Source: Vibrio tubiashii ATCC 19109
GTDB lineage: Bacteria; Pseudomonadota; Gammaproteobacteria; Enterobacterales; Vibrionaceae
Direction: 5' to 3'
DNA length: 64,000 nt
Assembly: GCF_000772105.1 (NCBI RefSeq)
Contig: NZ_CP009354.1
Coordinates: 1,488,001-1,552,000, forward strand
The first letter of the stretch is position 1; each line of letters opens with the position of its first letter. Position numbers and translations under genes: made by a program. Of the stretch, positions 29,271 to 54,268 are shown piece after piece. The notes under the pieces are model-generated. The model ran no database searches, was not told where the DNA came from, and saw nothing but the letters and a program-made list of their open reading frames with translations.

Positions 29271-29287
29271 AATGTTATTTCCTTAAA

Positions 29288-31151: not shown

Positions 31152-31537
31152 GATTCACGTTCCTTATGTATGGGCATATTCTTCTTTGAGAACACGCTTA
31201 TCGTTATCAATTCTCTAGTAACAAGGAGGGAACTTGTTGCTAGATGCGTTTAAGGTTAATGGTCTGTTAAATCTATGTCTCCAATACGTTGATAAAAAGA
31301 ATATTGGTCATTGTGGGGGTTTTGTTCATAAAGTTCACGTACTCAAGTTATGAGTCTGTGCACGTATGCAATAGACGTGTAAATATATTGCAAGCTGTCT
31401 CATATTTTTATGGAATGATATTTGGTTTTTTAGGTTAAGTATTCTAATAATCTATTGATCTGGATAAGAAAGACCCAAGTAAAAATAATATTGGGAAGTT
31501 GAACCGTTCACTCGATGCCATCGGAGGGCGTTCAAGA
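31152..31537. other. Divergent promoter region between tctC and the HD-GYP gene
   Basis: 386 bases without a gene. It contains the 31215-31243 inverted repeat listed separately and AT-rich sequence next to the HD-GYP gene. I see no riboswitch and no reading frame with a ribosome binding site. Confidence 0.55.
31215..31243 (-). repeat. Inverted repeat in the tctC leader
   Basis: CTAGTAACAAG and CTTGTTGCTAG form an 11-base stem with one G-T pair around a seven-base spacer, 64-92 bases before the tctC ATG. It could be an operator for the tct regulator or a leader hairpin. It has no T run on the minus strand. Confidence 0.6.
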
Positions 31538-35395: not shown

Positions 35396-38300
35396 TTAAA
35401 TGCTGGCTGGAAGCGAGAAAGCAGAGAAGAAGTTTGGAACAAATGGGTTATTTTGCCCTTGCGTCTTAATGCTTAATTCAACCTGACTATCGTCATACAC
35501 AAACTTCACAGTAGTATCTTGAGAGGTTGTCGATACTACTCTTGGTTCAATCAACTTGAACCAAGCCCAGCTTCCGGTGAACTTCTCATCGGCTACCTGC
35601 GTTTCTTGCGCTTGTAGTTTGAATCCTATCGAGTTTTTGTCCACGTCTTTTGCTGACCACGTCTGCTTGCTCCATAGCCTTGGGCCGTGTTGATAGCTAA
35701 ACAGAGACTTCTCTGCAATGATAGAGAACTGAGTCAGGTTCGAGCTCATCTCCATCGCTTTTAGTTGGAACTGAAGCGTTAGGTTTTGCGGATCTTGTAA
35801 GAATAGCGCATTACGAATGTCCGTCGCTTTGCTAATCATCTGCCAAACATTAGGATCAAGTGCCAACCCTGAGTTCGGTAGCAGCCCCGGCAAGAAAGGA
35901 GAACGTTCATCGGTAGAGAAACCTTTTAGTTTGCTCTGGTAGAACTTATCCAATACACCATTACTCTTAAAGAAAGAGGCGACATCGCTCGTTGTTGCAT
36001 CCACTGAAGCAGCTTTGTTAAATGGATAGTACGCTGCAATCGTATCTTGATAGGTTTGGAATACCTCGCTTTGCCAAGCCGTGTTGAGATAACCATGTGC
36101 CAGTAGCATCACCATTTCATTTGCCTGCGTAGTCACGCCATTAATGATGTCGAGTGATAGTTGCGGCTGTTTCTCAGTTTGTTTTGCGACAGAGGAAACT
36201 GGGTTACTCACCTTTAGCTCTGCGGTCAGGGTAGAGAAAGCAAGCTTTTGAGGTTTGTCTGAAGAGTAAAACTTCTCTAGATACGTCTCCATTTCTGTAA
36301 ATTGACTAAGAAGTGTATCTATTGCTTTTGTTCCCTGATCATTAGCCTCCACTTGCTGGTGGTAAGGCATAAAGGCAATGTAAATCTGGCGAGCGGACTC
36401 TTTCTTATCGGCATCTTGAGCCGGTGGTTGTGTTTCACCTTCTTTGGCTTTTGGCACCTCAATTTCGACTGACGTGTATTTGCTGATCGTGCCATACAGC
36501 TGAGCCAATGGGTTATTTGATGCCGTTGTAAGCACAGACAGTGTTGCTTTTAGTGAGTCAGCACTATCAACGTTATTCGCTTGAATATGAGCGGTAAAAT
36601 CTCGCCAGTAATTGATGTAGTCGTTTTGATACATCTGCTTAAGATCGCGACTAATACGGTAGAGCTCTAGCGCACTTGGTGAGCTACCAGCCACCCCCTC
36701 ATATGCTTGCAATGCTTCAGTCAGAACAGGTGAACCGACAGAAAGATCAAGCTCATTAAAGCCTGATGGCGTATACAAGTAGGGTACTAAGTAACCGACA
36801 TAATTCGGTGAGAAACTGAGTAGTTGAGAGAAGTTTGATCCTAACTCTTGACGCACATCGACACGCTTAGAGTAGGTTGGCGAGTTTAAGATATGCTCGT
36901 ACAACAGAGTCTCAACTCCAGTTTGGTTGATGACTTTCTTAGCTAACTTCTCAAGATCAAAATTGGCTTTAGTGGGAACCAAATCTTGAGCGAAGACGTC
37001 ATCAAGCAAAATCTTGAGCTGAGCAAGGTTTACGCTATCTGCTTCGCCTTGGTCAGTCAATGATGACATAAAGTAGCTCTTTAGCTCTTCAATGTTGGTA
37101 CGCTTAGGGTCGAACAGTAAGCGATAGTTATTCAACAAAGATAAGGTCTTAGCTTGATCTTCAAGGTTTACGTAGACAAACAGATCTTTTTCTAGGGTGT
37201 TTTCCATCGAAGGAATAAGAACACGGGCTAGCTCATCGAAATAAGCGGCTTCCACTTCCGTCTTAATGCTTGAACTAGGCATGAAGGGCAGGGTATACCA
37301 AGGATCGGGCTGAAGGTAGAGCGCGTAGATACGATTGAGAGAGTATAAGTTCGGAATATTGTCCGCCATATTCTCAATATCGTAAGGTGACGCAGCGATC
37401 GCCTCTTTGTAGCGCTCTAACATGTTATCGGCACGTGTTTCACGCGCGTTTTGGTAATCAAAATCTAACTTAATGATCGCTAAGATAGCAATTAGAAGCA
37501 CGGCACAAAACACAGTGTAAGCACCTTGCCAGAATATCAGCATATTCTCTTTACGGCGGTTGACGCCGACAAGCTCATTTTCGTTCAAGACCACGTGGTT
37601 CATGATGTGCTGAGCAAACAGGGTCTGGGTGACTGGAATTTGCTGGTGCTGCTGGAACTTCTCGTTGCCTAGAGATTCATTGACGACATTGGCCAGCAGG
37701 TCATACTGCTTTTCACCTGAGCCACTATGAGTAAAATAAAATCCACGGAAGTTGAGACCATTACTTAGCTGATCACCTCGATACAGCCTTTGTAAGAAAT
37801 GCCACAGACTTTGTTTTAGCAAACCAAACTGGTAAGGCGCTGCACAGATAGAGTTACGATATTCTTGATTAAGCTGTGAGGAAAGCGCGCTGCTGGTGTT
37901 AGCAATTAATTGACTGATTAAGTGGTCATACTCTTCGTGATACCAATCTGCGTCTATCCCACCATTTTTAAGGACCGGAGACGTTGCGCCAAATACATCG
38001 TTGCGCTTGGCTTCATCAAATGCAGAAAAGAACTGACAGAAATCGTTCACCTGACCCATGTTGGTGATCAGGTTATATACGGGCAGATTCAGTCCGAATG
38101 TGTCATTGAACGTTTTAATAGTCGATTTAACGTCATCAGCTCGTTGAGTAAGTTTCTCTTGGTTGCCGAGTAGTGTAGCGATTTCGGTCGTCAACAATAA
38201 CCCGTTTATAGCCTGACGTGGACGCCATTTATTGAGGCTATCCGAGAGGGTTTTCAGATACTGAGGTTGTTGATCTTCACCCATGCTAATAGAGATAAGA

Positions 38301-38770
38301 ATAGAGTGTTCGCTTAGCCAGAATAGAATCGGAAATTCGATGTCATTACCGAAATCATCAACCTTGTACGCCTCGTATCCCATTTGTGTAATGATGCTCT
38401 TATCTTTACATGGGTCGTCACTCAACAATAGGTAGATAGGTTGGTCATAACGACTGTTAAGCCTTTTCTTGCGCTTTTGTACACCAATCATGCGTTTAAA
38501 GTGCAAAGCCAAAAGCTTACTTCGTTTCTGGATCAGCAATCTTTGTTGATCGGGTGTTTTACTTGCTCCGCCTTTACGTCGCATCAACCAGTAAGTGAGT
38601 AAACCGATAACGAGACCTGTGATGAATGATACGATACCACCGATAATAAGTTTCTCTGGATAGAGCCACCAGGTTAAGGCACCACCTATCAGCATGACAA
38701 GCAAAGCAAGCAGTATAGACCAGACAAGGCTACGCTTTGTTGAATTCTGTGTGGGTTTAGCATCACTCAT
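35396..38770 (-). CDS. tssM: T6SS membrane complex protein TssM (IcmF)
   Basis: 1124 residues. Two N-terminal membrane segments (about 14-36 and 42-62), a cytoplasmic domain, a third membrane segment (about 417-437) and a long periplasmic part ending in an IcmF C-terminal domain. It forms the envelope-spanning channel with TssL and TssJ. The P-loop found in many TssM proteins is missing: after SRYDQPIYLLL the sequence reads SDDPCKDKSII (117-127) rather than GxxGxGKT. It lies two bases after tssL. Confidence 0.93.
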   Translation of the reverse strand: MSDAKPTQNSTKRSLVWSILLALLVMLIGGALTWWLYPEKLIIGGIVSFITGLVIGLLTYWLMRRKGGASKTPDQQRLLIQKRSKLLALHFKRMIGVQKRKKRLNSRYDQPIYLLLSDDPCKDKSIITQMGYEAYKVDDFGNDIEFPILFWLSEHSILISISMGEDQQPQYLKTLSDSLNKWRPRQAINGLLLTTEIATLLGNQEKLTQRADDVKSTIKTFNDTFGLNLPVYNLITNMGQVNDFCQFFSAFDEAKRNDVFGATSPVLKNGGIDADWYHEEYDHLISQLIANTSSALSSQLNQEYRNSICAAPYQFGLLKQSLWHFLQRLYRGDQLSNGLNFRGFYFTHSGSGEKQYDLLANVVNESLGNEKFQQHQQIPVTQTLFAQHIMNHVVLNENELVGVNRRKENMLIFWQGAYTVFCAVLLIAILAIIKLDFDYQNARETRADNMLERYKEAIAASPYDIENMADNIPNLYSLNRIYALYLQPDPWYTLPFMPSSSIKTEVEAAYFDELARVLIPSMENTLEKDLFVYVNLEDQAKTLSLLNNYRLLFDPKRTNIEELKSYFMSSLTDQGEADSVNLAQLKILLDDVFAQDLVPTKANFDLEKLAKKVINQTGVETLLYEHILNSPTYSKRVDVRQELGSNFSQLLSFSPNYVGYLVPYLYTPSGFNELDLSVGSPVLTEALQAYEGVAGSSPSALELYRISRDLKQMYQNDYINYWRDFTAHIQANNVDSADSLKATLSVLTTASNNPLAQLYGTISKYTSVEIEVPKAKEGETQPPAQDADKKESARQIYIAFMPYHQQVEANDQGTKAIDTLLSQFTEMETYLEKFYSSDKPQKLAFSTLTAELKVSNPVSSVAKQTEKQPQLSLDIINGVTTQANEMVMLLAHGYLNTAWQSEVFQTYQDTIAAYYPFNKAASVDATTSDVASFFKSNGVLDKFYQSKLKGFSTDERSPFLPGLLPNSGLALDPNVWQMISKATDIRNALFLQDPQNLTLQFQLKAMEMSSNLTQFSIIAEKSLFSYQHGPRLWSKQTWSAKDVDKNSIGFKLQAQETQVADEKFTGSWAWFKLIEPRVVSTTSQDTTVKFVYDDSQVELSIKTQGQNNPFVPNFFSAFSLPASI

Positions 38771-38772
38771 CG

Positions 38773-39972
38773 TTATTGTGCCTCTTTATCGTTTTTATTG
38801 TCGTTTTGCGTGTTTCTCACGATGATGGGTGTGAGCTGATCTTTTTCTATATACCAACTCTTAATTTCTCTTGCTTGCTCAGAGGACTCACTTCGTACAA
38901 TGACGCGGAAGTAGGAATCAAACTCGTCAACAACCGCCTCATACTTTGATGGCGCGAGCGTAGAAACAAAGTTTTCAGCATTTTTCTGCGAAGAGAACGT
39001 TGCTAATTGAACCAACCAAGAGGAATGGCTGGTACCTAAATTCGGCGGTGGCGGAGCGTCCACTAGCTCAACTTTACTGGCTCGTTGGGGCATGGTTTCC
39101 AAGTCAGCGTCATCACTGATAAAGACAATATCATTCACTTGGCCTGACATTACATAGCGAGCGCTGAAGTCCGGTAAGTTGTTAAAGTCGCGAGCTCGTT
39201 GCGAATGCGTTTTGTTGTACCAAAAATAGGTCAGGGCAATGCTGGTAAAGATCAGGCATAAGAAGAAAACAGTAGTGATAAAGTAGCGTTTACGACGAGT
39301 CGGCTTACGAACTTTAGGCAGTTTAATTCGAGTACGGCAATGGATCGCGCTCGTTTGTCGATACTGGCTAATTAACTGCTCCAACTGATGTATGAAGGAT
39401 TTAAGTTGGTCATTTCCTGTCTCTCGGTACTGACCTTTAAATCCAATGTTTAGGAAAATGTAGATGATCTCAAGTAGGTCAATCATCTTGTGCGGCTGTC
39501 TGAGTGCTTTATCAGCGACAGTAAAGAACAGCTCACCACCATTTCGCATACCGAAAAGTTCGCTCAGCAGGGTTTTGTTTTCCCAGCCGCGTGACTCACC
39601 CCATTCACTGTAAATAATCAGTTCGTCTAACACGACCGCGTAGAGGAAGCAGAGTTTATCAATGACTGCGACAGGGTAGGAAAGCTCAGCGCCTTTTGTT
39701 TTGATGTCATTAATCCCGTCAACTAGCTGATGACGTAAAGTTGTGACGTCTTCTGGCTCGGGAAGCGTAGAGACTTTTAATGTGATCGCTAATAGCTCAC
39801 TGCTTATATTGAGTAGCTGGTTTTCTGCTTTATCGAAATAGTGCAGAAATTCACTGCGACCTCGGCTCGCATCAACAGAGATCCATGAACTGTCGCTGAC
39901 ATCGTCTTCTTTAGCGACAAACTCGGACTCTTTTGCATCCCAGACTAGGGTTTCTTCATCCAAATAGTCCAT
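38773..39972 (-). CDS. tssL: T6SS membrane complex protein TssL (DotU) with SPOR domain
   Basis: 399 residues. A DotU domain (about 40-215, with LDELIIYSEWG) is followed by one membrane segment (231-251) and a periplasmic part ending in a SPOR domain (about 318-385, WLVQLATFSSQKNAENFV). SPOR domains bind peptidoglycan stripped of stem peptides, so this TssL carries its own cell-wall anchor instead of relying on TagL or a similar partner. It starts four bases after tssK. Confidence 0.93.
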   Translation of the reverse strand: MDYLDEETLVWDAKESEFVAKEDDVSDSSWISVDASRGRSEFLHYFDKAENQLLNISSELLAITLKVSTLPEPEDVTTLRHQLVDGINDIKTKGAELSYPVAVIDKLCFLYAVVLDELIIYSEWGESRGWENKTLLSELFGMRNGGELFFTVADKALRQPHKMIDLLEIIYIFLNIGFKGQYRETGNDQLKSFIHQLEQLISQYRQTSAIHCRTRIKLPKVRKPTRRKRYFITTVFFLCLIFTSIALTYFWYNKTHSQRARDFNNLPDFSARYVMSGQVNDIVFISDDADLETMPQRASKVELVDAPPPPNLGTSHSSWLVQLATFSSQKNAENFVSTLAPSKYEAVVDEFDSYFRVIVRSESSEQAREIKSWYIEKDQLTPIIVRNTQNDNKNDKEAQ

Positions 39973-39976
39973 AGCA

Positions 39977-41308
39977 TTATCTCAGGGCATATAGCATAAC
40001 TTCGAGGTCTGCGATTCGAGTATCGACATGGAGAGCAATCGCATCGCGGTTTTCGAGCATTTCTAACCACATACGATCGGCAGTGTCGACTTCAAAGTAA
40101 GACACCCCTTGCATCGGTTTAAGTTCACTTGGTGCAACTGGTAACGGTGACAGCGCAATACCCGATAGGCCGTTTCGTACGATCTCAACAATGCGCGCGT
40201 TGTTACTTAACTTGGCAGCGATAGGGAACAGCTCATTGAGCTCAGCACTGCTAATGGTCGATTTAACAGAGAGGACAAATCGACGATTCGACACGCTTGC
40301 GGTGTCTTTGATTAAGGTTCTAAGCAATCGACGACGTTCGAACAAAGAGCTATCCCAAGCAAACTCAAGTACAGAGTCTTGTTGAACCAGCGTGAGCATG
40401 TTACGCAGAGAGGCGAATAAAGGATTAAAGCTCTCGTAAAGCTTGTGATACTGCAATGGCAAACATGGTTCCGGAATCGCTGGAGTTAATGCCATGATTT
40501 GCGCTTCGAACTTACGCAACTCGCCGTAGACTTGGTGCGTTTGTAGCTTTGGATTGGTAATGGAAAGGTCAAACCACGGCAGCCAACTGTTCAATGTTTG
40601 CAACCACAAGTAATCTTGCATCATTGATTGCGGGCTTTTTTGCCCTTGGCCAGCTTGAATTCTCTGCAATAGGGTCGTTGCGCGATTGGCAGTCAGGGCA
40701 TGTATTTCTTTTAAACGCTCAAGTAGCAGTTGAGAGGCACCGTAATGTAGACATGCTGGAATAAATGCGCGGTCAAGAATCACTTCACCCGCTTCTGTGC
40801 ATTCTAAAATCTTGGCGACAGGTATAAGCGTAAAGCCAGAGGTATCTTCACCTTCCAACTTAATAGAAATATTCAGATGAGCGACATCTATCTCAACACT
40901 CGCATTTTCTGATGTTGATGTGTCAAATACATTGATAGAGCGAGATAGGTAACGACCTTGATCCGATTGCTCTTGCCCGTAGTCGTTGTTGCCTTGTAAA
41001 GAGATAGGAAGTGCCAAGTAGACCACAGTTTCAATGCTGCCTTGGATAACATCTCGGGCAACCTCGTGCTTCATTTCAAACTGAGTACCGTCAGGAAACA
41101 CACCTGCGCTACTGGCGATAGAAAGCTTACCGATTTTTAATAATTCGTGATTGATGGTGAGTTCTGTCACACCATAAAAGGGAGCAAATCCAGCTAGAGT
41201 CTCAACGTTCTGACGAACATAATTCTGTACGTAGCGATCCTGTTGCTGAAAATGTTGTGGGGCAATAAACATGCCTTCTTGCCAAACTACTTTTTTAAAC
41301 GCGTCCAC
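39977..41308 (-). CDS. tssK: T6SS baseplate protein TssK
   Basis: 443 residues. The start KVVWQEGMFIAPQHFQQQDRY is the family signature, and the end (DRMWLEMLENRDAIALHVD) matches the C-terminal domain that docks on TssL-TssM. TssK links the baseplate wedges to the membrane complex. Confidence 0.95.
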   Translation of the reverse strand: MDAFKKVVWQEGMFIAPQHFQQQDRYVQNYVRQNVETLAGFAPFYGVTELTINHELLKIGKLSIASSAGVFPDGTQFEMKHEVARDVIQGSIETVVYLALPISLQGNNDYGQEQSDQGRYLSRSINVFDTSTSENASVEIDVAHLNISIKLEGEDTSGFTLIPVAKILECTEAGEVILDRAFIPACLHYGASQLLLERLKEIHALTANRATTLLQRIQAGQGQKSPQSMMQDYLWLQTLNSWLPWFDLSITNPKLQTHQVYGELRKFEAQIMALTPAIPEPCLPLQYHKLYESFNPLFASLRNMLTLVQQDSVLEFAWDSSLFERRRLLRTLIKDTASVSNRRFVLSVKSTISSAELNELFPIAAKLSNNARIVEIVRNGLSGIALSPLPVAPSELKPMQGVSYFEVDTADRMWLEMLENRDAIALHVDTRIADLEVMLYALR

Positions 41309-41328: not shown

Positions 41329-41814
41329 CTAAAATACTTGCCACCAGCTGGATTCAGGTGTGACTATTTCTAACGAGGCTTTTGCCCCTTGTATGTTGAG
41401 CTGCAGATATTGATCTGCTTGTACTGGCAAAGTGGAAAATGCCTTTGTTTCACTATTCTGGTAATCAACAAACTCAACAAGTACGGCAACGTACTGGGTC
41501 GTTTTGTTAATATCTAATACCTGCTCAGTGCTTGTGTCTGGAAGTATTACCGGCAACACTTGTTTTGACACTAGGTTCGCGCTTAACAGCTGAACATCAT
41601 TTGAATACAGATCGATAAACGGTACTTGTTTGAACATCTGTACGTCGGTTAATTGATACAATCTAACGACGACAGGGTTTGCAGTGTTTGAATCAGACGG
41701 ATTCATTGCTGCATCTGACTTTATTGTTAAGTTGTATTGAGAAACGACAGGAACTGGATCAGAAGAACATCCAGCTAACAACAGCACTGCCGCTAAATAC
41801 CACTTCCTCATCAA
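41329..41814 (-). CDS. tssJ: T6SS outer membrane lipoprotein TssJ
   Basis: 161 residues. A lipoprotein signal (LLLAGC, Cys16) precedes a beta-sandwich domain with PVVVRLYQLTDVQMF, the TssJ signature. It anchors the membrane complex in the outer membrane and binds the TssM periplasmic domain. Its ATG overlaps the FHA gene stop by four bases. Confidence 0.93.
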   Translation of the reverse strand: MMRKWYLAAVLLLAGCSSDPVPVVSQYNLTIKSDAAMNPSDSNTANPVVVRLYQLTDVQMFKQVPFIDLYSNDVQLLSANLVSKQVLPVILPDTSTEQVLDINKTTQYVAVLVEFVDYQNSETKAFSTLPVQADQYLQLNIQGAKASLEIVTPESSWWQVF

Positions 41815-42755
41815 CCTTCCTCTCGCTGTTTCTGCATATTTTCCAAAAACAAAGCTTTGAACTGGCGACGAAAGTCTCCATTTTGTTGTCTGTGCTGGAA
41901 GTGCTTACGATAGATCTTCCAATACTTTTTCTCTTTGTTGCTGAACAGTCCGACAGACAGGTACTCGCTAAACTGATTTTCAAGTTCTTTAGGAGCGAAC
42001 TCATTGAGAAACTGATCAACGGTTTTTTCTAATGCATCAAACAAGGCATCGTGGTGAAGCATTGGGTTTTGCAAATATTGTTGGTTTTTCTCAGATAGCG
42101 TAAGTAGCTTCTCAATAGACGCTTCCAACTGAGTATTGTTGCTTGGTGTATCGACAGGCAGATACTCTAGATCGGTGGCCTGTTCGAACGTCTTTGTTTG
42201 TGCCACTTCGTCCACTTCGACATGAGCAGCGATTTCGTCGCTATCTAGATCTTCAAACGGGTCTGAGGCAAAAGGATCATCGCTTAGAACATTTTTATGC
42301 GAAAACGAAGCGCCGCTTTGTTTTTGCTTTGGTGCTTCTGTTTGTTCTAAGAACTCAGTTTCGTCATCGTTAAGGTTTAACTCAAATGGTTGAGAGAGAA
42401 AGTCGTCATCGTCTTGTTGAGGTGGCTCAGCACTTGATGAAACAAGAGTAGAAACAAGCATGGTGTAGTTTTCTACTTTTATGATGTCTCCGTCATTGAG
42501 TGGGTATTCTTTATCTCTCACCATGACTTTGTCGTTTAATGAAGCGCAATTTTGACCACGACTAATCAATACATAGCCTCGGTCGGTTAGGCGGACTTCG
42601 CCATGAGTACGGGAAATACGTTTGCTTTGGTCGGGTAAACAGATATCACACGCAGGGGCACGACCAAGAGTGCCTCCTGATTCTGGAAGATACACAACTC
42701 TTGAGGCTACAACCTCTTCAGTGGGTACAGAAATCAAATGGATACTGACGGCCAC
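41811..42755 (-). CDS. tagH: T6SS FHA-domain protein (TagH/Fha)
   Basis: 314 residues. An FHA domain (about 24-100: GGTLGRAPACDICL, SKRISRTHGEV, then the SLND stretch) reads phosphothreonine. The middle is acidic and low in complexity; the C-terminal part (about 200-314) matches the TagH C-terminal region. With the kinase at the end of the operon it forms a likely threonine-phosphorylation switch controlling assembly. Confidence 0.9.
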   Translation of the reverse strand: MAVSIHLISVPTEEVVASRVVYLPESGGTLGRAPACDICLPDQSKRISRTHGEVRLTDRGYVLISRGQNCASLNDKVMVRDKEYPLNDGDIIKVENYTMLVSTLVSSSAEPPQQDDDDFLSQPFELNLNDDETEFLEQTEAPKQKQSGASFSHKNVLSDDPFASDPFEDLDSDEIAAHVEVDEVAQTKTFEQATDLEYLPVDTPSNNTQLEASIEKLLTLSEKNQQYLQNPMLHHDALFDALEKTVDQFLNEFAPKELENQFSEYLSVGLFSNKEKKYWKIYRKHFQHRQQNGDFRRQFKALFLENMQKQREEG

Positions 42756-42758
42756 TAG

Positions 42759-43481
42759 TTACCTCTCACACTTAGATACGGCTGCATTGAATGCAGACAA
42801 GAAACCAGAATACTTAGTTAGGAAACGATTTGAAAAATAGACGCCCATCGGTTTAGTTTCGAGAACTTGATACTGGAAAAAATCGCTCGGTAAACCTGCT
42901 TCATCTAGCTCGCTTTTGAAGACCAAATCATCTTCTAAAGCAATGTCAATTTCCCTTTGTTTTAAAAGCTTTAGTAATACTTTAGCATCTCTAGGCTGTT
43001 TGACTACGTTATAGCCGTTACGTTTTAGCCAAAACCACTTATTCGACCCAAATTTAGCCGAGAATTTAAGGTTAAGCTTTGACAACTCATCTATTTTAGG
43101 CTCGACACCGGGGCCGAAATACCACATAAGTTTTTGTTCTGCGATAGGTGCCGAAAGTGTGGCGTATTCATCTCGCTCATCAGTTTGGGTAGCAACAAAG
43201 AAACCGTGTTGCGCGCCACTGTGTACGCGTAGTTGCGCATCAGACCAACTGGTCATTGTGAGTTGGTATGGTTGGCCCATTTTTCCAAGGATGCATTTTA
43301 CTTTATCTAGTGCTAAACCCTGCATTTGTCCGTGCTTGTACTCTTGGTAAGGCGCCCACTCTTGAGTGGTTAACAGTAATCGAGCAGGTCCAATGCTAGT
43401 TTGTGCGAAAGCATGGGTGCTGCTAAGCAGTCCCATCATAATCATTAGGCAGAAAGCAAAACATGGCATCATTCTGACCAT
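42759..43481 (-). CDS. Periplasmic solute-binding family 3-like protein in the T6SS operon
   Basis: 240 residues. Signal peptide (about 1-27, ending HAFAQ), then EWAPYQEYKHGQMQGLALDKVKCIL, the ligand-site start of family 3 binding proteins. It is shorter than amino-acid binding proteins in transporters. The start at 43481 has GGAGG six bases before it, and it overlaps the previous gene by 13 bases. No permease or ATPase partner is present, so a sensing rather than transport role is likely. Confidence 0.8.
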   Translation of the reverse strand: MVRMMPCFAFCLMIMMGLLSSTHAFAQTSIGPARLLLTTQEWAPYQEYKHGQMQGLALDKVKCILGKMGQPYQLTMTSWSDAQLRVHSGAQHGFFVATQTDERDEYATLSAPIAEQKLMWYFGPGVEPKIDELSKLNLKFSAKFGSNKWFWLKRNGYNVVKQPRDAKVLLKLLKQREIDIALEDDLVFKSELDEAGLPSDFFQYQVLETKPMGVYFSNRFLTKYSGFLSAFNAAVSKCER

Positions 43482-44476
43482 TCATTTCCTCCAATTAACT
43501 CGGAAATTTTTAAAATTGAAACAGGGGGATAATAATCCAAAGTGCGTGCGGCACCCACATTGACAATGTATGAATACTGGCTAAGTGGCTCAATAGGCAA
43601 ATCTTGGGCTTTACGTTTGTTGCTCAATATTTGCTCTGCTTTGTGTCCGGCAAATTCACCAACGTTATAATAACGGCTAACTATACCAAATAGCGCGTTA
43701 TGATTGCGAATAGGGGATTCAGTTGCTGAAAAAGTAGCTATTCCCTGGGCGTGAAGGCTATCTACGATGCCTTTCCCTTGGCTGATGATGTAGGAATCGG
43801 GTGGTAAATAAGCAAGCTGGACCCTATCTTCAAGCATGGTTTCGATCACTTTCGAGAGTGAGCTTAGGTCTGGTTTACCATCTTTAGTTCGAAGAGGATA
43901 CAAGTAGACATCCATACCGAACTTCGCAGACAGCATTTGAATCTTACGTGCGGTAATCACCGCGTTGTTTTCCAACGGATTGAACACGATGCCCATTGTC
44001 GAAATATTGGGCAGTTTTTGAATCGCGTTAAATTGAACCTTGTGGGGCACAATATGACTTACACCAGTAAAATTACGATGCTGAGAATTGTCATCTGAAA
44101 TTATTTTTGAACCCACAGGGTCGGTCACGATACTAAATACCACAGGGGTATTGCTGTGCTGTCTAAATGACGTTGGTTTGTCTTCTGTTCCTAAGAGTGA
44201 GAGGGTAGTCGTAGTGCCGAATGTATAAACAAGGTCTGCATCGTAAGAGTCTATGTTATTAATATAATTAGACAATGTCTCTCTGTCTCTTTTGGCGTCA
44301 AGCAAGGTGTAGCTGACGGGCATTTTACTAGAAAGGTATTCCATAAAGCCTTTTTCAGCATCAGTGACACCTCGCCATAAGATCATGACAACATGCTTTT
44401 TCTCTGCTGCGAATGCCAACGTTGGTACTGAGAACTGCGTGACCAAGGTGATCAAAACTAAGATTAAAACTCTCAT
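43469..44476 (-). CDS. Periplasmic ABC-type substrate-binding protein (PF04392-like) in the T6SS operon
   Basis: 335 residues. Signal peptide (about 1-23, ending TLAFA), then a two-lobe binding fold of the ABC_sub_bind family (VVMILWRGVTDAEKGF; FGTTTTLSLLG; GIVFNPLENNAV). Members often serve sensor proteins or orphan uptake systems. The ATG overlaps the stop of the sensor-MFS gene (ATGA), so the two are translationally coupled. Confidence 0.82.
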   Translation of the reverse strand: MRVLILVLITLVTQFSVPTLAFAAEKKHVVMILWRGVTDAEKGFMEYLSSKMPVSYTLLDAKRDRETLSNYINNIDSYDADLVYTFGTTTTLSLLGTEDKPTSFRQHSNTPVVFSIVTDPVGSKIISDDNSQHRNFTGVSHIVPHKVQFNAIQKLPNISTMGIVFNPLENNAVITARKIQMLSAKFGMDVYLYPLRTKDGKPDLSSLSKVIETMLEDRVQLAYLPPDSYIISQGKGIVDSLHAQGIATFSATESPIRNHNALFGIVSRYYNVGEFAGHKAEQILSNKRKAQDLPIEPLSQYSYIVNVGAARTLDYYPPVSILKISELIGGNEWSE

Positions 44477-47016
44477 TTTGCTACCTCTAGTTGTCTATCT
44501 TTTTTAGTAAAGAATGCGTAGAAACCCACCAACACCGTAGAGCTGATAAACAACGTGATGCCAAACAGTATGATGGTGTCTTGGAAACCAAATAGGCTCA
44601 GGCACAAGCCTGCTAACATAGGCCCTGCGATGTTTCCGATGCGCTCGGTAAGTCGGAAAATACCGATTGTTTTTCCTTTATCGATTCCTTCGTTGGCCAG
44701 TAAGTCCATGACCAACGGAATCTGCGGTGAGACACTGATGCCGTGTGCGATACCAATCAGAATCACGATCATCAATAGCCCCATAGTACCTGGCAGGAAG
44801 ACGATGTTAACTAAGGCTAACGCTGAAAGTAGACCGCCAAATACGATGAACTTAATTTTGTTATCCCAACGGTCTACGAGGAAAGCACTCAAAGGTGATA
44901 TGACAATAATCGCGATACCATAACTCATCATGACACGACCCGACACTGCACTGCTTTCGCCTAAATACTGTAAATAAACTGGGCAGATGTAATAGAGGAA
45001 GCCTGTGAGAACGACCTTGGCTGGTATCGCACTGAAAAAAGTGATCAACGAGAAGTATTTGTTGCTGAGCAAGACTTTAAAGTCATTGAGCCGAACTGGC
45101 TTACTTTGAGCGTTTGAACTACCACGACTGAAAAAGCTCATAACAAACAAAACGCTTACCAAGGCTAAGACAGATGCGAGCATAAAGGTCACGCTATAGC
45201 CAAGCTTGTCCGCTAAGATGCCACCGATTGCCGCGCCACACAGAGAACCAGAGAAAAACGAAGATAAGAAGGTAGACATACCTTTAGTTCGGTTTTTGGT
45301 CGTCGTTGTATCAGTGATATACCCTTGGGCAGAAATGAAGACAATACCATAACCAACTGCCGTATAAGCTCTCGCAATAAGTAGCAGCTCAAGTGTTTGA
45401 CAGATTGCGGTAAGAGCGAGGCCTGTACTCGTGATTAAGCCTCCGACTATTAAAGACTTGCGACGGCCTACTTTATCTGACCAATAGCCAGCAAAGGGTA
45501 GGGAGATTGCCCAGCAGAACATAAACAGAGAGATAGGTAAGCTGGTGACTAAGCTTTCAGGTATCCAATCTTGCGAGCGAGATAAGCTGGCTACAAAGTT
45601 TGGGAAAAATGCTAATGAAGCTGCTTCTGCGAAGACCAGCATAAACAATGGCAGTCGAATAAAGCGATAGTCTTGAAGATTTTTTACTTTAAGCGTTTTG
45701 TTTGAATGTTGTCTTTGGATAATCGAGTTGATGCTATGAGTCACACGCCCAAGCTCATCTTTGGCAGAAATACGCGCGAGCCACAATGATGCGCCAATTT
45801 TTGAGTCTGTTAGTAATTGTTTGATCTGGTGCCAAGGTTTTATGATCATGAAATTACAGACAAAAAGTATAATTTCGATGACCACAAGGGCAGACGCGAT
45901 AAGTACCGTCAACATATCCATTAAGCTATCTTCGATTAGCTGAGGGATAATGTTCATGTCGGTGGTCATCTTAATCGATGTTAGTGAATCTGGATCGATT
46001 TCCAGATTTATCGAAGACGAATGGTCGTTACCCGTAAAGTTATTTGGGTAATGGTACAAAGACGTTTCAGCCTGTTGAAGCTCAATAGAGAGCAGTTCTT
46101 TATGCTGACTAAGATACTCAGCAAACTCATCTTCAAGCCCATAGAGTCTATCTAGAGGAACACCTTGGTTGAGCAGTCTTTGGATCATGCTGCTAAGCGT
46201 GTCACCAATGACGATAGATTTCTGTTCTAATTGAGTTTCGTAAGTGGTCGAGAATTTATCGAGAGCCTGATACGAACTACCCACATTAGACGCGATAGTC
46301 AGAACGATAGCCAGTGCAATAATCAGCAGCGGGAAATACTTATCACGAAAGCGCTGCCAACCATTTTTACCTTTTTTAGCAAAAAAGCGTTGATTGGCGT
46401 TTTCGATAAGCTCTTTGTCAGTCAGCTCTGGTTGTTCAAGTGTTTCTGAGAACCCTTTCAGCTTCTTCAACAAAAAGTCTAGGCCGGTGTATAAAGCTAC
46501 GTAGCCAATAAAGCATGCAATCAACACCCACATTAATGTGTCAAATAGTTGCTGCATAAGCAACTTATGCTTAATGCTGTTTAAGTATCCCGTTGAGTAG
46601 TAAAGCTGAAGAGCACCTTCTTTGACATCAAAAGTATTGGTGATGTCAGACGCGATAAGTCGTTCGTTCTCAGTGGCTTCACCAGCAGAGTAGAGGACAT
46701 CCCCTTTATTGTTGACGACTTGCATTCGGCTAATTCCGTCAACAAGCGATAGGCGTCTCTCTAAAAGAGATTGGATGTTTGAAATAGAAGAAAGTGGCAG
46801 GCCTAAACTTATAGCCTGCTTAATATCGTGATCGGTTTCGTTTAAGACGACTTGATAAGTAGAATCACTGGTTTGGGTTAGCCGTTTCTCAAAGTTTAGA
46901 TAGTTTAATGTGCTGTTTAAGCCATTGGAAAACAGTAAGACTGAGAAAATCGCTAACACGAGTTTGACTCTTAACGAGAAAAACGTACGACGTGAAGTGA
47001 CATGGTTACTGCTCAT
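44473..47016 (-). CDS. Tandem-sensor / HAMP / MFS transporter fusion protein
   Basis: 847 residues. Membrane segments at about 17-38 and 158-180 flank a first extracytoplasmic domain; segments at about 228-246 and 367-393 flank a second; a HAMP-like stretch follows (394-445); then about twelve MFS segments (453-840) with loop motif GYWSDKVGRRK. The two periplasmic domains look alike (QAISLGLPLSSI and QRLLNQGVPLDRL at matching places), so they may be a duplication. Such a sensor-transporter fusion is unusual. It sits 25 bases after tssH and overlaps the next binding-protein gene. Confidence 0.85.
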   Translation of the reverse strand: MSSNHVTSRRTFFSLRVKLVLAIFSVLLFSNGLNSTLNYLNFEKRLTQTSDSTYQVVLNETDHDIKQAISLGLPLSSISNIQSLLERRLSLVDGISRMQVVNNKGDVLYSAGEATENERLIASDITNTFDVKEGALQLYYSTGYLNSIKHKLLMQQLFDTLMWVLIACFIGYVALYTGLDFLLKKLKGFSETLEQPELTDKELIENANQRFFAKKGKNGWQRFRDKYFPLLIIALAIVLTIASNVGSSYQALDKFSTTYETQLEQKSIVIGDTLSSMIQRLLNQGVPLDRLYGLEDEFAEYLSQHKELLSIELQQAETSLYHYPNNFTGNDHSSSINLEIDPDSLTSIKMTTDMNIIPQLIEDSLMDMLTVLIASALVVIEIILFVCNFMIIKPWHQIKQLLTDSKIGASLWLARISAKDELGRVTHSINSIIQRQHSNKTLKVKNLQDYRFIRLPLFMLVFAEAASLAFFPNFVASLSRSQDWIPESLVTSLPISLFMFCWAISLPFAGYWSDKVGRRKSLIVGGLITSTGLALTAICQTLELLLIARAYTAVGYGIVFISAQGYITDTTTTKNRTKGMSTFLSSFFSGSLCGAAIGGILADKLGYSVTFMLASVLALVSVLFVMSFFSRGSSNAQSKPVRLNDFKVLLSNKYFSLITFFSAIPAKVVLTGFLYYICPVYLQYLGESSAVSGRVMMSYGIAIIVISPLSAFLVDRWDNKIKFIVFGGLLSALALVNIVFLPGTMGLLMIVILIGIAHGISVSPQIPLVMDLLANEGIDKGKTIGIFRLTERIGNIAGPMLAGLCLSLFGFQDTIILFGITLFISSTVLVGFYAFFTKKDRQLEVAK

Positions 47017-47041: not shown

Positions 47042-49654
47042 TTACTTAATGGTTAGCTCAAAACCCGCTGGGTTTGATGCTGCAACAACCGAAACTTGAG
47101 AAATAGGCTGTTGTTGGCTCAGGCGGCTGATACATTCTTCCGCCAACTTAGGCATCAGAGAACGGTTGATGATCTGTTCAACGGCGCGACCACCTGTTGT
47201 TGGGTCCGTATTTTTGTTAACAACAAAGTCGACAAAACCCTTGTCCCAAGTGAAGCTTGCTTGATACTGTTCAGCCAATTTTTTCTTAATTCGATTAAGA
47301 GAAATTTCGGTAATCTTCGATAGCTCTTCATCGTTAAGTGGGTAATAAGGCACGATCGTGGTACGGCCCAAGAATGCTGGCTTAAAGTAATGTTGTAAGT
47401 CAGGGCGAATGCTTTCTAGAAGCTCTTCATTGGTCATACGTTCTTCACGATCTTCACACGCATCACAAATCGCTTGGTCTGCTGCGTTGGAAGTCATAAT
47501 GATAATGGTGTTTTTGAAATCAACCGTGCGGCCTTCACTGTCTTTGATATGCCCTTTATCAAAGATTTGATAGAACAAGTCGTGAACACCTGGGTGTGCT
47601 TTTTCCATTTCATCAAGAAGAAGAACAGAATAAGGGTTGCGTCGAATTGCTTCAGTTAACACACCACCTTCACCAAAACCAACATAACCAGCAGGAGACC
47701 CCAAAAGCATAGAGATCTTATGTTCTTCTTTAAATTCGGTCATGTTGATCACGGTTAGGTCATTGCTTCCGCCGTACAGTTGCTCAGCAAGTGCCATGGC
47801 TGTTTCTGTCTTACCAACACCACTTGGACCACACATGAGGAACACACCAATTGGTTTGCGGCTGTCTGTTAGACCTGCACGAGAGATACGAATAGCCTTA
47901 GCAAGCTCTTGTTTAGCCACATTTTGACCGATAACACGTTTATCTAGCTCTTCCTCAAGCGAAAGTAATCGAGCAATCTCATCACTCATCATGTTACCAA
48001 CCGGAATACCTGTCCAGTTAGCAATGATCTGAGCAATCGTATTGTCATCGACCATTGCATTTACGAGAGGCAATTCACCTTGCAACTCGTGAAGTTCGTC
48101 TAGCGTGTCATTGAGGGCTGTCTGCTTGGTAAGGTCACCTTTGTCTTCACCTTCAGCGTTGCTAATTTCCTCTTGCAAAGCCTTGATTTGATCAACCAGC
48201 TCAACTTCTTGTTTCCAACGAACGTTCAGGGCTTCAAGCTCTGATTCATTGGTTTCGATTTCGCCTGTGATCTCTTTGATCTCTTCTTCAGCAATACCGA
48301 AAAGCGCATTCTCTTTTTCTAGAGCAGCTTTTTCGTTCTTTTGATAACGAATGGTTTGCTCTAGAGATTCAATAACTTCAGGTTTAGCACCTTGGGTCAG
48401 GGCAATACGTGCACTGGCAGTATCAAGAAGGCTGATCGCTTTGTCTGGTAACTGACGACTAGGCAAGTAACGAATAGACAGATTGACCGCTGCATCAATG
48501 GCGGTTTCAGCGATGAAAGCACCGTGGTGTTTCTGTAGTGAAGCTGCTACGCCGCGCAGCATCTGCTTTGCATCTTCTGCATTAGGCTCTTCGATAGAAA
48601 CCACTTGGAAACGACGAGTAAGAGCAGGGTCTTTTTCAAAGTACTTTTTGTACTCTGCCCAAGTCGTTGCAGCAATTGTTTTGAACTCGCCACGCGCTAA
48701 TGCGGGTTTAAGTAAGTTCGCCGCGTCATTCTGACCAGCAGCACCGCCAGCACCGATGAGAGTATGAGCCTCATCAATGAATACGATGATAGGTACTTCA
48801 CTGTTTTTTACTTCGTTGATGACGTCTTTAAGTCGGTTTTCAAACTCACCTTTAACGCTTGCTCCGGCTTGAAGCAATCCCAAATCCAGTGAATGGATTT
48901 GCACCCCTTGCAGTGCCCCTGGGACTTCATCCGCTGCAATTCGAAGTGCTAGCCCTTCCACAACGGCTGTTTTACCTACGCCCGGTTCACCGACCATGAT
49001 TGGGTTGTTTTGACGCTTTCTACAAAGAATATCGATGGCCTTGCGAACTTCGGCGTTTCGGCCTGATATTGGGTCAATATTACCGTCAATCGCTTGTTGA
49101 GTTAGGTTAATCGTATACTTACTTAGCGCATCGTTTGCAGACGGTTGACCAGCCGGTGCGCCACCTTCTGCTGCTGACGTTTTACTGCGAGCAACGGCGG
49201 TTTTATTGATCAGTCCCTGTAAAGATTCAAGTGACACTGATTGCAAGCTTTCCAGTTGAAGCGTGTTCACACCCAATACGTTTTGCTGCAATAAAGCTTG
49301 TACTAAATGCAAGCTGATCACTTCGCCATGAGCATAGTTTACTGAGGCGATCATCCAAGCGTCTTTAATTAGTTCAGTCAGACCGTGGCTCAGAGTCGGT
49401 TGCCCTTCGCTTCCTTTTGGAAGTCGTGCAATCTTGGTCGACAGCTCATTAACAATCGCGTCTTGAGACAGCTTTTGAGATTGCATCAAGTTGCTCAAGT
49501 TGGCATCTTGCTGAGAAATTAATTGCAGCAACCAATGCTCAATCTCGATAGAAGGAACGCCTTGGTTCATGGCAGCACCAGCAGAGACTTCAAGAGCCTG
49601 TTTTAGCTCGGGAGAAAGCTTGGCGACTAAATTTGTTAGTGTTACTTGTGTCAT
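47042..49654 (-). CDS. tssH: T6SS ATPase TssH (ClpV)
   Basis: 870 residues. A Clp N-terminal domain, two AAA+ modules with Walker A GEPGVGKT (about 220) and GPSGVGKT (about 606), Walker B VFIDEAH and LLLDEMEKAHP, and the ClpV middle domain. It disassembles contracted TssB-TssC sheaths. AAGGAAAAC precedes the ATG. Confidence 0.95.
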   Translation of the reverse strand: MTQVTLTNLVAKLSPELKQALEVSAGAAMNQGVPSIEIEHWLLQLISQQDANLSNLMQSQKLSQDAIVNELSTKIARLPKGSEGQPTLSHGLTELIKDAWMIASVNYAHGEVISLHLVQALLQQNVLGVNTLQLESLQSVSLESLQGLINKTAVARSKTSAAEGGAPAGQPSANDALSKYTINLTQQAIDGNIDPISGRNAEVRKAIDILCRKRQNNPIMVGEPGVGKTAVVEGLALRIAADEVPGALQGVQIHSLDLGLLQAGASVKGEFENRLKDVINEVKNSEVPIIVFIDEAHTLIGAGGAAGQNDAANLLKPALARGEFKTIAATTWAEYKKYFEKDPALTRRFQVVSIEEPNAEDAKQMLRGVAASLQKHHGAFIAETAIDAAVNLSIRYLPSRQLPDKAISLLDTASARIALTQGAKPEVIESLEQTIRYQKNEKAALEKENALFGIAEEEIKEITGEIETNESELEALNVRWKQEVELVDQIKALQEEISNAEGEDKGDLTKQTALNDTLDELHELQGELPLVNAMVDDNTIAQIIANWTGIPVGNMMSDEIARLLSLEEELDKRVIGQNVAKQELAKAIRISRAGLTDSRKPIGVFLMCGPSGVGKTETAMALAEQLYGGSNDLTVINMTEFKEEHKISMLLGSPAGYVGFGEGGVLTEAIRRNPYSVLLLDEMEKAHPGVHDLFYQIFDKGHIKDSEGRTVDFKNTIIIMTSNAADQAICDACEDREERMTNEELLESIRPDLQHYFKPAFLGRTTIVPYYPLNDEELSKITEISLNRIKKKLAEQYQASFTWDKGFVDFVVNKNTDPTTGGRAVEQIINRSLMPKLAEECISRLSQQQPISQVSVVAASNPAGFELTIK

Positions 49655-52408: not shown

Positions 52409-52826
52409 AACTGTCCTCCGTCATTAGTGTTCTTAAATCATTCAGTGAAATTTTTGAGTCAAATACCAACTCGGTTTCTCCTTGAGTGGTTTTGGCTTTT
52501 GCAACGATGTTAAACGCAATGGCGTTTTCATTTTCTTTGCGCTCTCCGAGTTCAACCATCACATTGGTTAATCTTGGCTCGAAGTGTTTGATATAACTTT
52601 CCAATCGAAGGGCTAGTTGCGCTTGATCTAGGCTAGCGCTCAGTAGTTGCACGTCTTCAATGCCATAACGAAAGTTAGAGCGCTGCAGTTCAATAAAACG
52701 GTCGTCTATCTCAAGTAGAGATGCCTCGGACTCAAGTAGTTTAGTTAAGTTGTACTTGATGTCTTCAATGTCATCATTAGGACCTGAGTTTTCGTGTGGC
52801 TGAACAAAAGTTTTCCAGAAACTCAT
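52401..52826 (-). CDS. tssE: T6SS baseplate protein TssE
   Basis: 141 residues with the gp25-like fold (IKYNLTKLLESEAS; LESYIKHFEPRLTNVMV). The usual position of the family's EPR-like motif reads FEPRL here. It shares one base with the stop of the tssC-like gene (TAATG). Confidence 0.92.
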   Translation of the reverse strand: MSFWKTFVQPHENSGPNDDIEDIKYNLTKLLESEASLLEIDDRFIELQRSNFRYGIEDVQLLSASLDQAQLALRLESYIKHFEPRLTNVMVELGERKENENAIAFNIVAKAKTTQGETELVFDSKISLNDLRTLMTEDSYE

Positions 52827-54223
52827 TACGCCACCTCATCCAGTTCAGTTGTCAGGACCACTTCACCAGTGAAATGGTCATACTGGTATTGGGGAAGAAT
52901 GCGTAAAGTGCAAGAAAAACTGCCTTTGTGATGTGGCGATTCTGTAACACTGATCTTGGCGAAGCTTAGCGGGTATTTAGACAATGTTTCTTCATTGGCA
53001 AATGAGACGTTGCTGGAGAATTTTTCAATCCAATGCGTTAAGAAAAGCTCACATTCTGATGCGGTATTGAAACTACCAATCATTTCTCTCACTTGTACCT
53101 TCAAGTAGTGAGCGATGCGGCAGGACATAAGGCTGGTTTGGATTTGTGTAAGCACTTTCTCGTTATCTGTTTGAGAGTGACTTTGCCAAATCGAATTGTT
53201 GCCATTAAAGTAAAATTTTTCGCTCAAGGCACTCTTAGTCAAAGGAATAAAACCGTTCTGAGCATAAAAAGTCGAAATCTGACCAAACAAAACCACATCA
53301 GTTTCAGGACGAGATAAAAACTGGCTATCGTGATGCTCTAAATTAACCAAAGCCCCTTGAGCTTTATCGTTCCAGCGAGACTTTAAAAAACCGAACCAGT
53401 TTACTCGATGGTGTTCTCTCATCATGGTAGCCGCAAAAGCGAACGCGGCATTGCCCCAAAGTCCTTGACCAGCTTCATTGTAGATAAAGCCCACTTTGGC
53501 ATTCTTGTAGCAGTTACGCATACGAATGGAAGGCATGACTAAGCCAACAAATTTAGACGATGCTTTCTGTCTTAGCTCTTGCCAAGGTTTGTAGTCCTCT
53601 CCTGTAAGGATTTTTTCAATTCGGTTAGTATCTGATAACCAATCCGCAGTCGGTTGGACAAAAAACTGCTCATCAGGAGAAAAAAGCATAGGGCATAGAG
53701 TGACTTCGCCTAACTTACCTAATAGTTCCAAGGTGAATAGGTCGTCATAGTCCGCATCAAAATCCATATCAAGCGAGATTTTGTGCGTAAAAACAATGCT
53801 ACCAAATGGGTGCCCGCCTAGCGTGTTGAGCTCTTTGTTACCAATTTTGTTGTAAAGCTCAGATCCTTTGATGGTATAGGCTTGGTTGACGTCGTTTGAT
53901 ATCTCGGACCAATCCATATCAAGCAATTTGAGTTTAGTTCGTTGCTTGTTAACGGGCAGCTTGGCTAAGCCTTCAAGCCCGAGCCAACTACCATGAAGAG
54001 TCTCGAAATCATTGTGGTGCAGAATCTCATCAAGCTGCTTTGAAATACCGCTGTCTAACTCGGTGATCAGCTGGGCGAGAAAAACCGTTAAACGTCCTTT
54101 ACTGGTGAGTGCTTCCGGAGCAATCTCAGACAGCAGAGATAGCGACTCTTTCAAAAAGTCGTTGTCTGTGGTGTCTAATCCGGCAAAATTCCGTTGCCAT
54201 TCTGAATCGATGTTCAAATTCAT
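52826..54223 (-). CDS. Second TssC-like sheath protein (divergent paralogue)
   Basis: 465 residues from the ATG at 54223; the frame extends upstream to a TTG, but that start lies inside a hairpin. It aligns with TssC along its length: HGSWLGLEGLAKL (TssC: EGSWRGLQKLVKE), a PFGSIVF stretch (TssC: PYGTFIG), SCRIAHYLKVQVRE (TssC: SGRIAHYLKVMGR). It is clearly diverged and has no second TssB. A modified sheath subunit, a cap or baseplate adaptor, or a regulator are all possible. Confidence 0.85.
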   Translation of the reverse strand: MNLNIDSEWQRNFAGLDTTDNDFLKESLSLLSEIAPEALTSKGRLTVFLAQLITELDSGISKQLDEILHHNDFETLHGSWLGLEGLAKLPVNKQRTKLKLLDMDWSEISNDVNQAYTIKGSELYNKIGNKELNTLGGHPFGSIVFTHKISLDMDFDADYDDLFTLELLGKLGEVTLCPMLFSPDEQFFVQPTADWLSDTNRIEKILTGEDYKPWQELRQKASSKFVGLVMPSIRMRNCYKNAKVGFIYNEAGQGLWGNAAFAFAATMMREHHRVNWFGFLKSRWNDKAQGALVNLEHHDSQFLSRPETDVVLFGQISTFYAQNGFIPLTKSALSEKFYFNGNNSIWQSHSQTDNEKVLTQIQTSLMSCRIAHYLKVQVREMIGSFNTASECELFLTHWIEKFSSNVSFANEETLSKYPLSFAKISVTESPHHKGSFSCTLRILPQYQYDHFTGEVVLTTELDEVA

Positions 54224-54248
54224 CATGTCCTGAGAATAGAGAAAGAAT

Positions 54249-54268
54249 AGGCCGGACAAGTCCGGCCT
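54249..54268 (-). other. Perfect hairpin between tssC and the tssC-like gene
   Basis: AGGCCGGAC and GTCCGGCCT form a 9-base-pair GC-rich stem with a two-base loop, 11 bases after the tssC stop. On the minus strand it is followed by ATTCTTTCTC. It may stop part of the transcripts or protect the 3' end of the hcp-tssB-tssC message, whose products are needed in excess. Confidence 0.7.

Follow-up and report, generated by a model that had tools for sequence, protein, structure and literature searches.

Three genes between tssH and tagH of a Vibrio tubiashii type VI secretion cluster form two units and may serve as a periplasmic signal-input module

The 64,000-nucleotide stretch of Vibrio tubiashii ATCC 19109 analyzed here (contig NZ_CP009354.1, positions 1,488,001 to 1,552,000; hereafter the window) carries a type VI secretion system (T6SS) cluster in which three genes for membrane and periplasmic proteins lie between tssH and tagH. 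As read from the open reading frames (ORFs), the order on the (-) strand is tssH, sMFS, ABC_sub_bind, SBP3, tagH, where sMFS denotes a protein with a sensor-like N-terminal half followed by a major facilitator superfamily (MFS) domain, ABC_sub_bind a binding protein of the Pfam family of that name (87.7 bits against a cut-off of 25.9) and SBP3 a family-3 solute-binding protein (coordinates in Table 1). The genes are closely packed, with a gap of 25 bp from the end of tssH to sMFS, overlaps of 4 bases between sMFS and ABC_sub_bind and of 13 bases between ABC_sub_bind and SBP3, and a gap of 3 bp from SBP3 to the start of tagH. This arrangement agrees with a preliminary description of the same DNA, and the further statement made there that neither binding protein has a permease or an ATPase also holds. 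Specifically, from tssB to the small kinase gene all ORFs of at least 120 residues are T6SS genes or one of these three, except for an antisense ORF (44555-44923) within sMFS, and Pfam and NCBIfam searches of this set, which included no dedicated TagQRST profile, returned no ABC permease, no ATPase partner and no TagQ. The absence refers to the window cluster, as the neighborhoods of relatives are only partly domain-annotated. Both binding proteins begin with a hydrophobic, signal-like segment.

The association of these genes with the T6SS extends well beyond the window. In 247 Vibrionaceae genomes we found 68 sMFS sites (E ≤ 1e-60) in 66 genomes, and all 68 lie inside T6SS clusters; neighborhoods were read for every one of them (12 + 55 + the window), and the search scored up to four candidates per genome, so that further sites may be missed. 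The sites comprise 30 of type 1, which is the window's type (one contig ends within sMFS and one sMFS is broken), 30 of type 2, in which tssH is followed by zero to three ORFs, an ATP-grasp gene, sMFS, ABC_sub_bind, SBP3 and tagH, and 8 of a vgrG type, in which the sensor is split and sMFS and ABC_sub_bind stand directly upstream of vgrG. A wider scan with an 18-row profile and one genome per GTDB species placed 58 of 78 loci in T6SS clusters; these loci represent the best 80 of 116 relatives, so that distant members, which are probably more often non-T6SS, are under-counted. Here, 29 loci were of type 1 (Vibrio and Motilimonas; one contig ends within sMFS) and 29 of the vgrG type (Rhodobacteraceae, Marinomonas, Marinobacterium, Oceanospirillum, some Vibrio and Photobacterium, and others), and the remaining 20 had no T6SS gene in the DNA examined, two of them on contigs shorter than 8 kb. 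With 68 of 68 Vibrionaceae sites in T6SS clusters, the arrangement is not a product of chance. The surmise in the preliminary description that it is conserved in related T6SS loci is thereby borne out, and the neighborhood survey did not find the genes mostly outside such loci, a distribution that the description had named as telling against its model.

These counts bear directly on the possibility that the three are passengers, that is, ordinary transport genes that were trapped in the cluster and have no role in the T6SS. Such a history would fit the existence of T6SSs of the same type that carry none of the three genes (L193-195). It is difficult to reconcile, however, with a position that is the same across Vibrionaceae and that is kept by SBP3 across two proteobacterial classes, with retention of the 4-base sMFS/ABC_sub_bind overlap in 25 of 28 type 1 loci, or with the higher conservation of SBP3 between types 1 and 2 (38-42% identity) than of sMFS and ABC_sub_bind (18-22%). 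On this conservation we judge a passenger origin to be very unlikely. As a separate observation, in the one genome represented by L041 the sMFS gene is split into two ORFs (747 and 114 residues) next to intact ABC_sub_bind and SBP3 genes.

The preliminary description regarded the three genes as a single cassette, a view that we had to abandon because SBP3 stays between tssH and tagH when the other two genes are elsewhere or absent, and because those two also occur outside T6SSs. The genes instead form two units that move independently, one being SBP3, a fixed accessory gene of the T6SS, and the other a movable pair of sMFS and ABC_sub_bind. An SBP3 profile run against the same 247 genomes gave 76 sites (E ≤ 2.9e-70), every one of which adjoins tagH; 67 are in clusters that bear sMFS and 9 in clusters that do not, one of the latter being on a contig end and dropped from later counts, which leaves 8. 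(The TagH profile TIGR03354 is too weak for this type of TagH and was not used for counting.) Where sMFS stands beside vgrG, SBP3 is separated from it and still found between tssH and tagH, both in Vibrionaceae (8/8) and in T6SSs of other orders (16/16; Oceanospirillales-type and Rhodobacteraceae genomes). ABC_sub_bind, on the other hand, adjoins sMFS in nearly all loci read, inside and outside the T6SS. Consistent with this division, a T6SS-type SBP3 (E ≤ 2.6e-61) was present in all 17 queried genomes that have sMFS in a T6SS, whereas no full-length strong match was obtained in the 8 queried genomes that have sMFS outside one: six gave no match at E ≤ 1e-8, one a weak match of 52 bits and one a truncated match of 126 bits. 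In a 369-genome sample of the class, the window genome was the only one to yield the T6SS-type SBP3, and the four other genomes with an SBP3 match (L231-234) showed no T6SS gene in the stretch examined.

With respect to SBP3 itself, the sequence scores just below the cut-off of the SBP_bac_3 profile (PF00497; E 2.1e-5, 24.8 bits, cut-off 26.4), and its AlphaFold model (pLDDT, the predicted local distance difference test score, 89) matches PDB folds of the GlnBP/ArtJ type (best E 1.3e-14). As modeled, the protein belongs to the family-3 solute-binding proteins and has the type II periplasmic binding protein fold. In binding proteins for amino acids an Arg holds the carboxylate of the ligand and an Asp its amine, and to judge from the residues that align with such sites the ligand of SBP3 probably bears a carboxylate and may be of the amino-acid type. 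Two of the aligned residues, R103 and K148, were followed among 83 distinct T6SS SBP3 proteins (109 before near-duplicates were removed by their last 200 residues; proteins of <216 or >299 residues were dropped, including a fusion in L182 and the truncated L222). Where the T6SS has sMFS, all 75 proteins keep R103 and 74 of 75 keep K148, and a further 16 of 16 keep both, for totals of 91/91 and 90/91. Both residues are lost in six of the eight T6SSs that have SBP3 without sMFS, where the pair reads His/Thr, His/Ser or Ile/Ser. The six genomes concerned gave no sMFS at E ≤ 1e-60; the two sMFS-less T6SSs that keep both residues are in genomes that hold another sMFS cluster (G287 and G260). On an SBP3 tree inferred with the trait columns excluded there are at least four losses of sMFS and two losses of R103, both on sMFS-less branches; these branches make up 12.4% of the tree length, so that the probability of two random losses falling there is about 0.015, a rough figure given the few events.

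Loss of R103 and K148 together with sMFS links the ligand site of SBP3 to sMFS and is the best evidence that the site would serve that protein, with only two independent losses carrying the signal. The claim in the preliminary description that the binding proteins are functionally linked to the sensor thus stands in part, namely for SBP3. By the same observation, SBP3 is also of some use in the absence of these residues and of sMFS, which brings in the alternative that it acts as a factor in the structure or assembly of the T6SS membrane complex (the periplasmic parts of TssJ and TssM) and that sMFS and ABC_sub_bind are a separate system sharing the operon. Such a factor would be expected to stay beside tagH-tssJ-tssK-tssL-tssM, as SBP3 does even where sMFS is relocated or lost, and to persist with an altered pocket, as in the six T6SSs noted above. 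It would not account for the retention of R103 (91/91) and K148 (90/91) alongside sMFS and the loss of R103 only in its absence, nor for the way in which the T6SS-type SBP3 tracks sMFS in the T6SS (17/17) and has no full-length strong match in the eight genomes with sMFS elsewhere, and we consider this alternative improbable. A direct contact between SBP3 and TagH was also considered from L182, in which SBP3 and TagH are read as one 582-residue ORF (9865-11613) with no stop between them. We rejected this as an assembly fault, since the same contig has split tssK and tssM genes and contamination of the genome is 6%.

The AlphaFold model of sMFS (mean pLDDT 82) places two alpha/beta domains between long membrane helices ahead of the MFS domain (the alignment and the model begin at residue 2; numbering here is that of the full protein). 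In topology and alpha/beta pattern these periplasmic domains fit Cache-type sensors, and there is no Cache or PAS match above cut-off; no Pfam family matched the sensor halves above cut-off, the best being HisK_sensor (E 0.037) and Cache_WalK (E 0.074). In most vgrG-type and non-T6SS loci the first of these domains is a separate protein of ~250-300 residues, and the segment that leads into the MFS domain may be a HAMP-like linker. The protein ends in the MFS domain, with no catalytic output domain in Pfam or in the model. By structure comparison with VIA-align, which covered almost only the MFS part, the nearest folds are transporters of the DHA1 type, namely NorA, VMAT2 and SotB. Within this domain E464, R549, Q564 and K667 are invariant in all 102 T6SS-linked sMFS proteins of the three types, and no substitution occurs at H758, R788, E791 or R792 where these positions align (1-2 gaps); the non-T6SS class of this comparison includes one T6SS locus on a short contig (L128). 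These intramembrane charges are conserved despite an overall identity of ~20% between types 1 and 2, and their conservation argues for a bound ligand.

It is necessary to weigh whether sMFS is simply a working transporter, fed by the binding proteins or gated by its sensor domains, whose transported molecule (a nutrient, a precursor or an exported signal) matters for the T6SS. The DHA1-type fold and the fully conserved intramembrane charges are what such a protein would show. Motif A (G-x-x-x-D-K/R-x-G-R-R/K), which many MFS transporters require, is moreover intact in all 37 type 1 proteins, and in each of the 30 type 2 loci sMFS is preceded, at a distance of up to 60 bp, by a D-Ala-D-Ala-ligase-like ATP-grasp gene (for example L031, 7823-8974), as if a small product were made there; in L196 the ATP-grasp gene is retained after loss of sMFS. 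In type 2, however, at the same T6SS position, motif A is degenerate, with the Asp kept in 3 of 32 proteins and the Gly changed to Asp in 29 of 32, which argues that transport is not the shared function. Feeding of an MFS transporter by a solute-binding protein is also not known to have been described, and the sensor-like domains, together with the phosphatase and kinase neighbors of sMFS outside the T6SS, suit signaling better. Transport as the function of sMFS is thus conceivable, if unlikely.

Those neighbors were seen at 22 non-T6SS loci of the sMFS pair, of which seven lie near SpoIIE-type phosphatases and two near a Ser/Thr kinase with dCache and HAMP domains; one locus also has an anti-sigma-type ATPase. 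SpoIIE was found at none of 58 T6SS loci and at none of 16 other loci, a thin control in that four of the 16 had been picked for a kinase. Two further gene contexts were recorded among relatives of the pair. In L048 (6390-7826) and L052 (10615-12108), from small genomes without T6SS genes nearby, sMFS is followed by a protein of 478-497 residues, for which a scan of the L052 copy gave no Pfam match. In three alphaproteobacterial loci (L085, L088 and L095) the genes after the pair encode an NMT1-like binding protein, a secretin-LysM protein and a pentapeptide-repeat protein, as identified by scanning the L088 copies and by homology in the other two.

Within the T6SS, the nearest candidates for an output are TagH and a small soluble Ser/Thr kinase. 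Both a Ser/Thr kinase and an FHA protein are thus in the cluster, as in the threonine phosphorylation pathway, and the kinase residues H125, D127, P130, N132 and D145 are invariant across 22 aligned rows. This kinase is within 35 kb of at least 64 of the 68 Vibrionaceae sMFS sites and in the cluster at three more (L205, L206 and L221); at the remaining site (G187) the contig breaks and a kinase is on another contig. Among the matches listed (proteins of <310 residues, down to E 7.6e-27), 18 of 82 small-kinase sites have no sMFS within 35 kb, and the 17 of these that were fetched comprise 13 T6SS clusters or fragments and 4 sites that are not T6SS. Because the kinase has no transmembrane helix, a transmembrane receptor would be needed, and sMFS is the obvious candidate.

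These observations lead us to propose, with confidence that is evenly balanced, that the three genes provide a periplasmic signal-input module of the i5-type T6SS, made of two units and leading to its phosphorylation switch. SBP3 would be a T6SS-specific binding protein for an amino-acid-type ligand, and sMFS and ABC_sub_bind would be a membrane receptor with its own binding protein. SBP3, and ABC_sub_bind as well, would capture a small ligand and dock on the periplasmic domains of sMFS, and the resulting change would reach the MFS domain through the linker. Acting from the cytoplasmic face of the membrane, sMFS would then bias the small kinase and TagH, and hence T6SS assembly, so that the module fills the place held by TagQRST or RtkS in other T6SSs. 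The preliminary description had placed the output at TagH or the membrane complex; in the present scheme it would run through TagH and the kinase, as suggested by gene neighborhood. More speculatively, and in our view doubtfully, sMFS may be the founding member of a receptor class in which binding proteins act via sensor domains on an MFS fold whose function is signal transduction rather than, or besides, transport, a class that would control Ser/Thr-phosphorylation switches, these being T6SS firing in the present case and SpoIIE or sensor-kinase pathways in the non-T6SS relatives.

Several observations weigh against the proposed signaling role. First, sMFS has no known output domain. SBP3 is retained in eight T6SSs without sMFS and must therefore also have a role that is independent of it, so that we reject a model in which SBP3 acts solely through sMFS. 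The kinase and TagH, in turn, persist in T6SSs that have none of the three genes (L193-195), and the same kinase family occurs outside the T6SS (4 of the 17 fetched sites). Outside the T6SS, 13 of the 22 loci have neither SpoIIE nor a kinase in the DNA examined (L107 being a contig of 3.6 kb). In terms of the SBP3 pocket, a sign test on the four independent pairs (2 same, 0 opposite, 2 equal) cannot reach significance; D184, which aligns with the amine-binding Asp, is kept in 36 of 36 type 1 proteins and is Asn in type 2 and Tyr in the vgrG type; and W42 is Leu in seven Rhodobacteraceae proteins.

The proposed module resembles several known systems in part. In LuxP-LuxQ, NspS-MbaA and TorT-TorS a membrane sensor receives its signal from a periplasmic binding protein that has no ABC partners, and these sensors end in histidine kinase or GGDEF/EAL domains, whereas sMFS ends in a 12-transmembrane MFS domain. 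It shares that 12-transmembrane fold with the DHA1 transporters but adds an N-terminal sensor-like half of 440 residues. An ABC uptake transporter differs in turn by its permease and ATPase. A TssW-PpkA-Fha axis is reportedly the subject of another study of T6SS phosphorylation. In Pseudomonas aeruginosa and Serratia marcescens a kinase-FHA switch is described as fed by the periplasmic proteins TagQRST and RtkS, respectively (PMC10482370, PMC6082577). The H1-T6SS of P. aeruginosa is similar to the present cluster in that periplasmic accessory proteins, among them the periplasmic TagR, feed a Ser/Thr kinase (PpkA) and Fha (PMC10482370, PMC6082577), but the window cluster has no TagS/TagT transporter or TagQ gene among its ORFs of at least 120 residues, its kinase of 247 residues has no transmembrane segment where PpkA kinases have a periplasmic domain (PMC6082577), and the receptor would be an MFS protein. 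RtkS is likewise periplasmic, is encoded beside fha and pppA and acts upstream of PpkA, and its authors suggest a possible small-molecule ligand (PMC6082577). It differs in that its partner is the periplasmic domain of PpkA and in being described as having no relationship to known small-molecule-binding proteins (PMC6082577), whereas SBP3 is of the GlnBP/ArtJ type.

Apparently the same genes have been listed before without a role. For Vibrio sp. J383, Table 5 of PMC10385127 places three genes between tssH and the FHA gene, annotated as MFS transporter, ABC transporter protein and transporter protein; tssM is followed, where the kinase lies in the window, by an 'AarF/UbiB family protein'. In V. 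fluvialis, genes named as ABC periplasmic component and MFS transporter at the left junction of VflT6SS1 were treated as flanking, and VS_1324 and VS_1325 were reported as absent (PMC5371669). We infer that VS_1324/VS_1325 are the sMFS/ABC_sub_bind pair; in the related V. furnissii the pair stands beside vgrG (L106 and L043). Searches of full-text literature, which leave most subscription journals outside their coverage, gave no title or abstract describing a binding-protein or MFS input to a T6SS. In the T6SS survey PMC2660368 no mention was found of COG0834, COG2984, periplasmic or solute proteins, a permease or a transporter, and in PMC9545535 and PMC11371242 none of a transporter or substrate-binding.

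As to the identity of the system, V. europaeus is described as having two T6SSs of subtype i5, T6SS1 on the chromosome and T6SS2 on a plasmid (PMC12824646). The window T6SS is of the V. tubiashii/europaeus type (98% identity for its sMFS), and we infer that it corresponds to T6SS1; a second copy on a 251-kb contig (G000:C3, L031) fits V. europaeus T6SS2. For the plasmid system a close similarity is reported to a T6SS of V. crassostreae that has been linked to cytotoxicity toward oyster hemocytes (PMC12824646). T6SS2 of V. coralliilyticus is anti-eukaryotic (PMC11371242), and strain BAA-450, which is among the strains of that study, carries the genes at L060. This locus is probably T6SS2, an assignment short of proof that relies on gene spacing (Hcp VIC_RS20130, VgrG VIC_RS20150) and on elimination, and by gene order the type of T6SS considered here would then include that anti-eukaryotic system. 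This is significant as the cue for firing is an open question for most T6SSs, and SBP3 and ABC_sub_bind are soluble, easily purified handles for finding it, with the altered pockets of SBP3 in sMFS-less systems as a ready prediction. If correct, the proposal would moreover assign a role to a widespread family of sensor-MFS proteins, which the sources consulted name only 'MFS transporter', 'transporter' or predicted permease.

Table 1. Features of the T6SS cluster discussed in the text (window positions)
Feature	Position	Strand	Basis
tssH (ClpV), upstream neighbor of sMFS	47042..49654	(-)	Pfam AAA_2, ClpB_D2-small, AAA_lid_9; position conserved
sMFS, 847 residues: two periplasmic sensor-like domains and a 12-transmembrane MFS domain	44473..47016	(-)	MFS_1 E 9.7e-44
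sMFS, first sensor-like periplasmic domain, ~residues 38-140	46597..46905	(-)	AlphaFold secondary structure
sMFS, putative second sensor-like periplasmic domain, ~residues 255-355	45952..46254	(-)	AlphaFold model
sMFS, MFS domain, ~residues 446-842	44491..45681	(-)	Structure comparison; conserved residues
ABC_sub_bind (PF04392) periplasmic binding protein, 335 residues, partner gene of sMFS	43469..44476	(-)	E 1e-24
SBP3, 240 residues, family-3 periplasmic binding protein	42759..43481	(-)	GlnBP/ArtJ fold
SBP3 R103 codon	43173..43175	(-)	Aligns with Arg of ArtJ TDER motif
SBP3 K148 codon	43038..43040	(-)	Loop aligned with GT loop of GlnP-type binding domains
tagH, FHA domain	41811..42755	(-)	FHA E 9.7e-11, T6SS_FHA_C E 4.3e-10
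tssJ	41329..41814	(-)	TIGR03352
tssK	39977..41308	(-)	TIGR03353
tssL with C-terminal SPOR domain	38773..39972	(-)	DotU E 9.4e-40, SPOR E 4.3e-6
tssM	35396..38770	(-)	IcmF domains
Small Ser/Thr kinase-like protein, 247 residues, no predicted transmembrane helix	34650..35393	(-)	Pkinase E 3.8e-14; hydropathy

Some additional features of the cluster are worth recording. Against the VI_FHA profile TagH scores 88 bits, which is under the cut-off of that profile. SPOR domains usually bind denuded peptidoglycan, and the SPOR domain of TssL could serve to position the T6SS at such sites. A second TssC-like sheath gene with VipB domains (52826-54259) adjoins the usual tssC (54279-55757) and recurs in type 1 loci; a duplication of tssC is reported in PMC10385127. 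Adjoining the kinase, 31499-34684 encodes a protein of 1061 residues with SBP_bac_3 and HD domains, which has relatives at the same place in L188-190 and is thus an HD-domain protein of the binding-protein-sensing kind next to a T6SS already equipped with an SBP3. A tripartite tricarboxylate transporter set of TctA, TctB and TctC (27744-31151) lies outside the cluster, past its kinase end.

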